NCBI RefSeq assembly: GCF_900101995.1 | Contig: NZ_FNAS01000010.1 | Location: 1 to 64,000, forward strand | Source of the DNA: Riemerella columbipharyngis | GTDB lineage: Bacteria > Bacteroidota > Bacteroidia > Flavobacteriales > Weeksellaceae | Length of the DNA: 64,000 nucleotides | Direction of reading: 5' to 3' | Translations under genes and position numbers: made by a program | The notes under the pieces: generated by a model | Told to the model about the DNA's origin: nothing | The model's input: only the letters and a program-made list of their open reading frames with translations | Database searches by the model: none | Shown here: one piece after another, positions 1-57,233 of the stretch | Numbering within the stretch: position 1 is the stretch's first letter | Layout of the letters: each line of letters begins with the position of its first letter

Positions 1-129
1 GGGGGCTTTAACCTCAACGGACAAGGAGTGAATAACGTGAATGATTTGCAAATAGTAAATGAGGCATTTGCGACGATATTAGAAATCATTAATCCGAAAC
101 AAGAGGAAAGTCGCGAAGAGAGCGAATAG
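1..129 (+). CDS. Phage protein of unknown function, C-terminal fragment
   Basis: The frame is open from the first base and ends in TAG after 42 codons. The visible tail ends in a charged, glutamate-rich stretch (NPKQEESREESE). I do not recognise the family. Its place just before a terminator at the right end of a Mu-like prophage suggests a late structural or tail gene, but this is inference. Confidence 0.5.
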   Translation, partial: GGFNLNGQGVNNVNDLQIVNEAFATILEIINPKQEESREESE

Positions 130-329: not shown

Positions 330-458
330 ATGACAAAATTCAACTACAAAGAACAGCATGCTGTCATCGTGAAGTGTAGTAGCGAGGAGGAGCAAAAGAA
401 AGTTTTTGAACAACTTAAGAATTTAGGGTTTAACGATTTAAAGATAGTATCAGTATGA
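330..458 (+). CDS. Small phage protein (42 aa) coupled to the ABC-GNAT gene
   Basis: The frame encodes a small charged protein with one cysteine (IVKCSSEEEQKK) and a predicted beta-alpha pattern. Its TGA overlaps the ATG of the next gene in an ATGA, which implies translational coupling. In phage Mu the mom gene is likewise preceded by a small overlapping gene, com. The sequence has no Com-type zinc-finger cysteines, so the resemblance is only of position. I do not recognise the family. Confidence 0.6.
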   Translation: MTKFNYKEQHAVIVKCSSEEEQKKVFEQLKNLGFNDLKIVSV

Positions 459-1574
459 GAATTGAAGTAAAACACACTTGCGAAAATTTCAAAAGTTTTC
501 GAGCAGAGAAAGTAAAATCATTGTTCAATGCGGAAAGCGGGCACGAGTGGGAACACATTGCAGAACTACCAATAGAGGATAGCGATTGGCAAATAGGGCT
601 TATTGTCGGAGCTTCCGGAAGCGGTAAGACTTCTATCGGTTCAAAAATATGGGAAAACGGCATTATAAATCTCAGAGAGGGATGGAATGATGATTTGCCT
701 ATTATTGAAGATATAGCTCCCGATAAATCAATGGATGAAGTAACCTCTGCTCTTTCTGCAGTAGGACTTGGAGATGTACCCGCGTGGCTGCGTCCATTCA
801 AGGTATTAAGTAACGGAGAGCAATTTAGAGCAGGCTTAGCGCGACTTATTTGTGAAGATAAAGACAAAATAGTAGTAGATGAGTTCACATCTGTGGTGGA
901 TAGGCAAATAGCTAAGATAGGAGCCTCCGCGTTTGCTAAAGCGTGGAGAAGAAAAGAGAAAAGGCAAATAGTGCTTCTTTCTTGTCATTACGATATTATA
1001 GAGTGGTTGCAACCAGATTGGGTTTATGATACGAGATTGTCGGAAGTAAAAAAAAGTCCCAAAACGACCACCTATCAAGCTGGAAATTTGGAAAACAAAC
1101 GGAACTTGGTGGAAGCTGCTATTTGAAGAGCATCATTATCTGAAAAGCTCTCTATCTATTGCTGGGGAATATTATATAGGTATTATTGATGGAAAGCCCG
1201 TTTGTCACTTAGCATTCACACCCTTCTTTCAAGTAAAAGCATACAGAGCAGTCCGCTTGGTAGTATTACCAGAATGGCAGGGGGTAGGGATAGGTTTAAG
1301 ATTCTTAGAAGAATGTTGTCAGATGTATTTAGAGGGCAAAAATAGGGCGGAAAAATGTTATCCTACTTATTTCAAGACATCTCACCCCAGACTTATAAAA
1401 GCCTTGTCTAACAGCAAGAAATGGCGTTTTAGCAACCAATCTCTTTACGGAAGCAACAAGCTTAGAAATATGAATAGTATCCGTAAATCAAGCAAGAGTG
1501 ATATAGCGAGAAAAAATATCGGATACGGCGGTCATTTTAGAGCGACTTGCAGCTTTAAGTATCTTGGAGAATAA
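455..1574 (+). CDS. ABC ATPase fused to a GNAT acetyltransferase (COG2401 type), interrupted by a frameshift
   Basis: The first part (residues 1-200) is a complete ABC ATPase: Walker A GASGSGKTS, signature LSNGEQ, Walker B KIVVDEFTS and H-loop LSCHYD. No membrane domain is present, so it is not a transporter subunit. The second part, read from about 1050 one frame on, is a GNAT-like domain with WWKLLFEEHHYL, the acyl-CoA loop region VVLPEWQGVGIG and TSHPRLI. The family (ABC ATPase fused to a predicted acetyltransferase) is normally one polypeptide. Here an A8 run at 1048-1055 puts the halves in different frames, and seven A would join them. This may be a mutation, a sequencing error or slippage on the A run. 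Its place at the right end of a Mu-like phage matches the Mu DNA-modification gene mom, also of the acyltransferase superfamily, so a role in DNA modification is possible but unproven. Confidence 0.75.
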
Positions 1575-1610: not shown

Positions 1611-1658
1611 TGGATATTTCGTTTTACAAAACTGGATATTTCGTTTTGCGGATTATAC
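1611..1658 (+). repeat. Tandem 22-bp Mu-like end repeats (right end)
   Basis: TGGATATTTCGTTTT starts at 1611 and again at 1633, a period of 22 bp. The second copy continues into GCGGATTATAC. The same core, A(C/T)ATTTCGTTTTGCGG(A/G)TTATA, recurs at 57207-57231 and inverted at 56654-56678. The spacing and terminal position fit transposase-binding sites of a Mu-like element. Confidence 0.6.
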
Positions 1659-2760: not shown

Positions 2761-3957
2761 ATGGGGTTAGACGGAAAAAAAATACTAATCGGAATAACGG
2801 GGGGAATTGCCGCCTACAAAATCAATTATCTGGTAAGAGCTTTGGTGAAAGCTAATGCAGAAGTAAAGGTAATTATGACACCTTATGCCGAAAAATTTAC
2901 CTCAAAATTGGTCCTTTCTACATTGTCTAAAAATCCTGTGTACTCGGATTTTTACAATTCTAATTCGGAATGGAACAGCCATGTAGAATTAGGGCTTTGG
3001 GCAGACGCCATGGTGGTTGCCCCTTGTACCGCTAATACATTGGCAAAAATGAGAACAGGATTATGCGACAATATTTTATTAGCTACCTACCTCTCTGCCA
3101 AGTGCCCCGTATTCATTGCTCCGGCTATGGATTTGGATATGTACAAACACCCTTCTACCCTGTCTAATATAGAGGCTCTCGAGAGCTTTGGAAACACCAT
3201 CATTCCCGTCGAAAACGGGGAATTAGCCAGCGGACTAAGCGGCGAAGGAAGACTCGCAGAACCGGAAACCATATTTCAGATACTGGATGCCCATTTCAAT
3301 CAACAAAAATCTTTAGACCAAAAAACGATACTCATTACCGCAGGTCCTACCTACGAAGCCATAGATCCTGTAAGGTTCATTGGCAATCATTCTTCGGGAA
3401 AAATGGGCTATTCCATAGCTAAAACCTGTGCTGAAAGAGGGGCAAAAGTCATCCTCGTTTCGGGGCCTACGAATGAAAAAGCATCTCATAAAAACATAGA
3501 AATCCATAAAGTAACTTCCGCAAAGGAAATGTACAAAGCGGTATTCAAGTTTTATGAGAATGTAGATATTGCCATCGCAAGTGCAGCCGTAGCGGACTAT
3601 GCACCTAAAATAACCTCCAAAGAAAAAATCAAAAAAAGCGATGACACGCTGTCCATAGAATTAGTAAAAAATCCGGATATCCTAAAAACGATGGGCGAAA
3701 AAAAAAACCATCAATATTTAGTAGGATTCGCTTTGGAAACGGAAAATGAGGAACTTAATGCCAAAACAAAATTAGACAAAAAAAACTTGGATATGATTGT
3801 ACTAAACTCCCTAAAAGACAAAGGTGCAGGCTTCCAAAGTGATACCAACAAAATAAAAATCATTACTAAAGGTGATATAATCGAATTTCCTGTAAAACCC
3901 AAAAACGAAGTGGCTGACGATATCCTAAACTTCATTGAAAAAAATATAAAACACTAA
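2761..3957 (+). CDS. coaBC: Bifunctional phosphopantothenoylcysteine decarboxylase / phosphopantothenate-cysteine ligase
   Basis: The enzyme carries out two steps of coenzyme A synthesis: ligation of cysteine to phosphopantothenate and decarboxylation to phosphopantetheine. The N-terminal flavoprotein half (about residues 5-180) shows GITGGIAAYK, the active-site histidine in WNSHVELG and PAMDLDM. The C-terminal ligase half shows ITAGPTYEAIDPVRFIGN, ASAAVADY and KNPDIL. The length of 398 residues is usual. An in-frame GTG at 2743 is less likely because TAATTTCG just before it resembles a -7 promoter box. The gene overlaps the next by one base, so the two are probably cotranscribed. Confidence 0.95.
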   Translation: MGLDGKKILIGITGGIAAYKINYLVRALVKANAEVKVIMTPYAEKFTSKLVLSTLSKNPVYSDFYNSNSEWNSHVELGLWADAMVVAPCTANTLAKMRTGLCDNILLATYLSAKCPVFIAPAMDLDMYKHPSTLSNIEALESFGNTIIPVENGELASGLSGEGRLAEPETIFQILDAHFNQQKSLDQKTILITAGPTYEAIDPVRFIGNHSSGKMGYSIAKTCAERGAKVILVSGPTNEKASHKNIEIHKVTSAKEMYKAVFKFYENVDIAIASAAVADYAPKITSKEKIKKSDDTLSIELVKNPDILKTMGEKKNHQYLVGFALETENEELNAKTKLDKKNLDMIVLNSLKDKGAGFQSDTNKIKIITKGDIIEFPVKPKNEVADDILNFIEKNIKH

Positions 3958-56653: not shown

Positions 56654-56678
56654 TATAACCCGCAAAACGAAATGTACA
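56654..56678 (-). repeat. Mu-like end repeat, left inverted copy
   Basis: The reverse complement contains ACATTTCGTTTTGCGGGTTA, the same core as at 1636-1657 and 57210-57230. Only one unit occurs here, as at the single L1 site of Mu. Confidence 0.55.
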
Positions 56679-56908
56679 TAGACGAATATGAGATTATTCT
56701 GCTGTATATAGAGAAAGGGGAGAGTACCGAGCTGGTACGGGGCTATTTGGAAAACAGGCGAAAAGAAAAGCTCAATAAGATACTAAGTGCCAATATTCTA
56801 AGCGTGTCTGCAAATCCTTTCTGCACGATAAAACGCCATACCGAGATAGAAACAGACAGACAGATCGCTTTGGATTTGTTTAATTTTTTGAAACTTTTGC
56901 AGGGGTGA
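56672..56908 (+). CDS. Small phage-remnant protein of unknown function
   Basis: The 78-residue frame (MYIDEYEIILLYIEKGESTE to LFNFLKLLQG) has ELVRGYLENRRKEKLNKIL and CTIKRHTEIETDRQIALDLF, mostly helical and charged. The start codon lies inside the end repeat, which suggests that the true N-terminus was lost or that the frame was created by a deletion. Family unknown. Confidence 0.45.
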   Translation: MYIDEYEIILLYIEKGESTELVRGYLENRRKEKLNKILSANILSVSANPFCTIKRHTEIETDRQIALDLFNFLKLLQG

Positions 56909-57129
56909 GACAAAGGCAGAAAAAGGCTTAAGCTCAAATAAACGCCTTAAAAACGCAGGTAGAAAGTCAGCAAGGGCAAATCAAAGCCACCGAAAAGGAG
57001 ATTGTTAAAACGAAAACAAGCCTGCGGTATTTGCTTTTGGTATGGCTGGGAATTCTGTTCGGAATTGCTTTTATCGGCTATTCAAGCGGCGTTTTTGGAG
57101 CTTTTAAACGGCTTTTAAATAGAGATTAA
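56905..57129 (+). pseudogene. Small coiled-coil membrane protein gene with an internal stop
   Basis: GTG at 56905 reads VRQRQKKA, a TAA at 56929, then AQINALKTQVESQQGQIKAT, a coiled coil, and RYLLLVWLGILFGIAFIGY, a membrane helix, ending in GAFKRLLNRD. Restoring the TAA to CAA would give one continuous protein of 74 residues, of the kind of phage spanin or lysis accessory protein. Inactive as it stands. Confidence 0.5.
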
Positions 57130-57184
57130 ATACAAGTGAGGGCTTTTGTCTATCTTTGCTGTGTCTACATAGGCTAAAAAAAAA

Positions 57185-57233
57185 TGTACATTTCATTTTG
57201 AAAAAGTGTACATTTCGTTTTGCGGATTATACA
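57185..57233 (+). repeat. Tandem 22-bp Mu-like end repeats, second site
   Basis: TGTACATTTC(A/G)TTTTG starts at 57185 and 57207, 22 bp apart, and the second continues into CGGATTATACA. Same layout as 1611-1658. It ends six bases before the -33 box of the small RNA copy B. Confidence 0.6.

Follow-up and report, generated by a model that had tools for sequence, protein, structure and literature searches.

Phage proteins that join an ABC ATPase to a GNAT domain have been predicted to function in DNA acylation, and the protein of Tenacibaculum phage pT24 was named among them (PMC7824862). Acetylation of RNA polymerase by phage GNATs is also on record (PMC7824862). The pT24 protein is homologous to the family considered here, with 38% identity over 252 residues. 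In the pT24 sequence (L268, near position 3150), the ABC ATPase-GNAT gene has a single in-frame stop within its GNAT part and is annotated as two genes.

The window, meaning the whole stretch of DNA that was analysed, comprises 64,000 nucleotides at the start of contig NZ_FNAS01000010.1 of Riemerella columbipharyngis. A preliminary description proposed that an ABC ATPase-GNAT fusion lies here in the position that mom holds in phage Mu and might modify phage DNA. With a probability of roughly 0.7, we favour the reading that a phage DNA-modification cassette, worn in this copy, lies in the window; in full, such a cassette consists of a small ORF, an ABC ATPase-GNAT gene and a formyltransferase-like gene.

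Organization of the Locus

The assembly contig ends where the window starts, and the remainder of the prophage lies outside the view. Its first 104 bases share 97% identity with a prophage fragment on contig C9 of the same genome. The features of the locus are as follows.

1..129, + strand: 3' end of an upstream phage gene, truncated by the contig end (open frame at the contig start)
164..299, + strand: conserved two-part hairpin element, a candidate structured leader RNA (MFE z-score, covariance model, covariation)
330..458, + strand: small ORF of 42 aa, with an ATGA overlap with the ABC start (homologues in relatives; phrog_28816, 6e-7)
455..1126, + strand: ABC ATPase part in its own frame, 223 aa, coordinates including the stop (phrog_11143, 9.5e-87; Pfam ABC_tran)
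1048..1055, + strand: A8 run at the ABC/GNAT junction, the slip site in relatives (A7, A9, A10, A11)
1053..1574, + strand: GNAT part, in a different frame from the ABC part (phrog_11143, 2e-48)
1612..1657, + strand: prophage right-end terminal repeats, two copies of GGATATTTCGTTTT (related copies in the same genome)

The preliminary description had treated 455-1574 as a single intact reading frame, which does not hold: ABC (455-1126) and GNAT (1053-1574) occupy different frames, and the switch falls near the A8 run. Its placement of the locus at a prophage right end stands, as the terminal repeats mark that end, but the Mu-like nature of this prophage is taken from relatives, which have the cassette at the right end and MuA/MuB-like genes at the opposite, left one. 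The PF09299 profile for MuA was silent in this genome and in control genomes alike and is therefore uninformative. The overlapping gene that had been noticed in front of the ABC start is indeed present, and an ORF at the equivalent place in Porphyromonas phage BK068089 is homologous to it. A com-like identity for this gene was not borne out, as neither the 42-aa ORF nor its homologues contain a CxxC pair. Among the related copies of the terminal repeat in this genome, one directly follows a mom gene on contig C16, and in genome G065 a prophage ends with the same repeat 3' of its formyltransferase-like gene. Elsewhere in the window (56654-57231), an inverted pair of phage end repeats 578 bp apart is accompanied by the tail of a spanin-like ORF, an arrangement that resembles what is left of a mini-Mu.

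The two parts of the window gene differ in how closely they resemble relatives. The ABC part shares 88% identity with its counterpart in L074, with a dN/dS of 0.035, and the GNAT part is at about 52% identity, whichever relative is compared. No formyltransferase gene lies between the GNAT part and the phage end. Because this gene is absent, the run is A8 and the GNAT part is divergent, the window copy is probably decayed, being either non-functional or poorly expressed, even though its frames contain no internal stops; A8 could also be a homopolymer error of the assembly. A chimeric origin, with the ABC part from the A9 class and the GNAT part from a different class, was considered and rejected, as the GNAT part is nearly equidistant from all classes and no donor was found.

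The ABC ATPase-GNAT Protein

The ABC part retains Walker A (GASGSGKT), signature (LSNGEQ), Walker B (VVDEF) and H-loop (CHYD) motifs, all invariant in family alignments, and matches Pfam ABC_tran at 2e-6; no membrane domain was seen in its translation. C-terminal to WWKLLFEEHH follows a GNAT-like domain, matched by phrog_11143 and by Acetyltransf_7 (2e-4, short of Pfam's cut-off), in which the acyl-CoA loop QGxGxG is intact in the window and invariant across the alignments. Both domain assignments of the preliminary description are thereby upheld. The phrog_11143 profile is collinear with both halves, residues 1-201 corresponding to profile positions 1-194 and the GNAT part to 199-351. Because single-frame homologues exist (P0002), the two halves are, judged from sequence, one gene of the phrog_11143 family. 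Porphyromonas phage BK068089 carries an intact homologue of 376 aa at its right end.

A full-length fold search was swamped by the ABC domain, and the GNAT domain was therefore modelled separately (pLDDT 82.7; 82.5 for the fusion). The GNAT model matches many N-acetyltransferases (Z 12-14, rmsd of about 3 over 130 residues), the top matches being common GNATs, RimI and SpeG among them. These matches speak to the fold alone, and with such generic matches a protein or small-molecule substrate is equally compatible with the structure. The supposed special kinship between the GNAT domain and Mom was rejected at the sequence level, with no Pfam match to Mom and an HHalign probability of 0.6%. The Mom structure 8bv8 was not among the structure matches listed, which says nothing against a distant relation.

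A Conserved Three-Gene Operon

Relatives of the window gene have nearly constant neighbours. A small ORF lies 5' of the ABC ATPase-GNAT gene at 73 of 74 loci in viral contigs and 78 of 80 in bacterial genomes (151/154 together), and a formyltransferase-like gene (PF00551, phrog_9240) lies 3' of it at 64 of 67 viral and 74 of 78 bacterial loci (138/145 together). The bacterial figures derive from the best 80 loci in a scan of a genome collection, all of them single-frame, and have no bearing on how frequent the slip described below is. As far as could be checked, these operon statistics are new, and the formyltransferase partner may have been noticed earlier. Of the two partners, the window has kept the small ORF and lacks the formyltransferase-like gene.

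Formyltransferases have a catalytic residue set that includes His, Asn and Asp; in the formyltransferase-like proteins of the cassette, the His and Asp are kept and the Asn is missing. The whole trio is retained in Pseudomonas phage Komp_PAO1_1, and Gordonia phages have the last two cassette genes, 3' of a ParB-like gene. The right-end location emphasized in the preliminary description recurs in the Mu-like relatives, but in other phages the cassette adjoins terminase genes, and a right-end position is thus no family-wide rule.

A Covarying Hairpin Element Marks a Probable Modification Slot

The region upstream of the small ORF (165-330) is predicted to be strongly structured, with an MFE z-score of -9.3, and a similar hairpin element recurs 5' of the cassette in many relatives. 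A covariance model (R1) built from 17 sequences scores the window element at 117.8 bits, the window and C16 sequences being part of its training set. Copies lie at 164-299 of the window, at C16:127-264 and at loci L138-L150 and L155-L183. Covariation is strong, with 193 double-change cells against 42 in shuffles, in an alignment fitted to the model. Most of the variable pairs change between Watson-Crick forms and G-U is almost absent, so that the element may also act as a DNA palindrome. A pairing switch between an upstream GTCCTCC and the apical GGAGGAC is moderately supported. The element has no match in Rfam, and a literature search, beyond whose reach two key papers lay, gave no description of it.

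The element is present in 31 of 197 genomes of the family, and in a covariance model search it preceded all 13 viral mom genes. Of 29 genomic loci that were read, one ends too soon and the other 28 all hold genes of DNA-modification type, with families verified on examples: phrog_56 DNA methyltransferases, C5 methyltransferases, a ParB-N6/N4 methyltransferase fusion, thymidylate-synthase-like proteins, Mom and the ABC ATPase-GNAT protein. In the genome from which the window comes, the element occurs only twice, before the ABC ATPase-GNAT gene and, on C16, before a true mom gene (PF25680, 3.5e-63), and the two cassettes share the terminal repeat at their ends. The proposed equivalence with the mom position is thus supported within a single genome. 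The exchange of the ABC ATPase-GNAT cassette with Mom and DNA methyltransferases in the same slot supports, by context, a role of the cassette in DNA modification. On C16, a 69-aa ORF between the element and mom (C16:288-494, L003) matches the N-terminus of thymidylate-synthase-like proteins and is probably a scar of cassette replacement. A second isolate genome (IMG genome 2834949002; L074, L138) likewise contains one prophage with Mom and one with the ABC ATPase-GNAT gene.

The most probable of the alternatives is that the protein modifies another protein, perhaps one involved in defence or the RNA polymerase of the host, and that the slot is a general site for anti-host genes. Precedent exists in the phiKMV GNAT Rac, which acetylates RNA polymerase, and in the RNA polymerase-acetylating phage GNATs cited above, and the fold matches of the GNAT domain are themselves protein and polyamine acetyltransferases. 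Furthermore, the prophage end on contig C9 of the same genome (293-2600, L010) holds a SocA/Panacea-type gene (a weak match) and a large membrane protein of 596 aa instead, which are possibly defence cargo. This prophage end, however, is without the element, every readable locus behind the element holds genes of DNA-modification type, and a fixed formyltransferase-like partner would be unexpected for a protein acetyltransferase. A protein target is thus considered improbable.

A Conserved -1 Slip at the ABC/GNAT Junction

The frame break in the window has counterparts in relatives. A frame shift is required in 29 of 80 viral relatives, at the A run in 27 and elsewhere in two (L076, L085), and seven more genomes of the window's family are split likewise at A9, the length also found in the closest relatives of the window copy. 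At the A run, the change is always -1 in the split relatives (27 viral and seven family genomes). On a maximum-likelihood tree, the 35 genes with the run group in a single clade (support 97/93), in a sample that includes related contigs and is partly non-independent; within it, A7, A9 and A10 define subclades of constant run length. Exceptions to the -1 rule are an A11 member, L045, which is in frame again, and the window copy, whose A8 would require +1 or -2.

Past the slip, the GNAT frame has a median dN/dS of 0.077, with 62% of differences at third positions, and by this measure is under purifying selection. Junction lysine codons are AAA without exception in 32 of 32 genes, AAG making up 30% of lysine codons elsewhere. 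A downstream stem-loop is typical of ribosomal -1 frameshifting, and the A7 class has one 6 nt downstream of the run, in which L088 and L089 differ by a compensated pair. Such a stem-loop does not stimulate the slip generally: for A9-A11 it was rejected, with z near 0 in simple mononucleotide shuffles. The A9-A11 classes may use transcriptional slippage, as their long runs and lack of a stem-loop suggest. Two Firmicutes phages, Lactococcus P335 and Enterococcus 9184, also change frame at this domain junction, with the in-frame heptamers A_AAA_AAT and A_AAA_AAG, respectively. Relatives therefore combine a slippery heptamer in the right frame, a -1 frame downstream and selection on that frame, and we read their A-run split as programmed recoding. 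A literature search gave no description of frameshifting in the ABC ATPase-GNAT family, two key papers being outside its reach.

Three other accounts of the break were weighed against recoding. In the first, which we regard as quite improbable, the two frames encode two separate proteins linked by translational coupling, and no fusion is made. Annotation lends itself to this account in P335, where the start of orf25 overlaps the stop of orf24, and in Thomasclavelia phage TR-TP2, whose GNAT part is annotated with a GTG start and which lacks a clear slippery heptamer. The main class, however, keeps the slip site strictly with its lysines all AAA, its GNAT frame is open upstream to the linker, giving an overlap of about 112-118 nt, and single-frame relatives show that the fusion is a working form.

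According to the second account, the break is mere decay or sequencing error in a family that acts fused, and the shift of frame at the A run serves no purpose. This is likely in the case of the window copy, with its A8 run, divergent GNAT part and missing formyltransferase gene. The majority of relatives are single-frame, and L045 (A11) and L098 (A10) are close and yet differ in frame. For the clade as a whole, decay or error is very improbable: all shifts at this site are -1, in single-contig genomes and metagenomes alike, dN/dS stays low past the break, only L076 and L085 are shifted elsewhere, and the A7 class has its stem-loop. The least probable account is a phase variation switch, with DNA slippage between in-frame and out-of-frame run lengths, for while L045 and L098 are a single A apart, all but one of the 28 viral genes with the run are shifted out of frame, and always in one direction, run length is constant in each subclade and A7 is short for such switching.

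Proposed Function and Implications

Returning to the favoured reading, that of a DNA-modification cassette, the operon, the domain motifs, the conserved slip with purifying selection behind it and the exchange with Mom and methyltransferases behind the element are evident at the sequence level. From context alone we infer DNA as the substrate, and likewise the acyl or formyl chemistry, the ratio of the products and protection of the phage. In relatives with an intact cassette, late transcripts would run into it through the conserved hairpin leader, and the ATGA overlap would couple translation of the small ORF to the ABC start. In the run-bearing clade, a fraction of ribosomes, or of RNA polymerases, would slip -1 at the A run after the ABC part, giving two products, ABC alone and ABC-GNAT, comparable to the gamma and tau products of dnaX. 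ATP-driven ABC dimers could then take hold of phage DNA and bring it to the GNAT domain, and this domain would move an acyl group from acyl-CoA onto a base; the formyltransferase-like partner may supply or finish the added group. DNA marked in this way would withstand host nucleases, as with Mom.

A tentative extension, held at clearly less than even odds, is that a new class of DNA base, with acyl and/or one-carbon additions, is made by an ATP-driven assembly of ABC and ABC-GNAT, its subunit ratio fixed by recoding, together with the formyltransferase-like enzyme, and that the cassette is one of several interchangeable modification cartridges behind a new structured RNA, which would mark the modification slot at the right end of Mu-like phages.

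The earlier prediction of DNA acylation by ABC ATPase-GNAT proteins gains strong contextual support, since within one genome Mom and the ABC ATPase-GNAT protein take each other's place in the slot and since the gene partners are fixed. These partners offer a hint at the chemistry, and a conserved recoding event is added for a probable DNA-modification enzyme. Because the structured element marks modification cargo, it can be used to find more modification genes, and sequenced phages with an intact cassette (Komp_PAO1_1) or its last two genes (Gordonia) allow direct testing.

Comparison With Known Systems

The closest relatives, the pT24 protein and the Iyer/Aravind ABC-GNAT family (PHROG 11143), agree with the cassette in protein family, domain order and predicted role. 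The operon, -1 recoding, hairpin element and slot shared with Mom were not found in that account (PMC7824862). Within the literature that could be checked, novelty extends to the recoding, the slot equivalent to that of Mom, the element and the statistics on operon partners. The com-mom module of Mu (Mom PF25680, PDB 8bv8) resembles the cassette in its right-end site, its tiny leading gene and, presumably, its anti-restriction use, and may do so in its acyltransferase-superfamily fold. Unlike com-mom, the cassette has an ABC ATPase partner, a canonical acyl-CoA loop and a formyltransferase-like partner; it shows no similarity to the Mom profile, and its small ORF encodes no zinc finger. The junction resembles dnaX-type -1 frameshifting in its slippery A_AAA_AAR or A_AAA_AAT in frame, its downstream stem-loop (A7 class) and an ATPase made with and without a C-terminal domain, but differs in the long A9-A11 runs without a stem-loop, in the misfit A8 of the window and in being a slip recognized from sequence.
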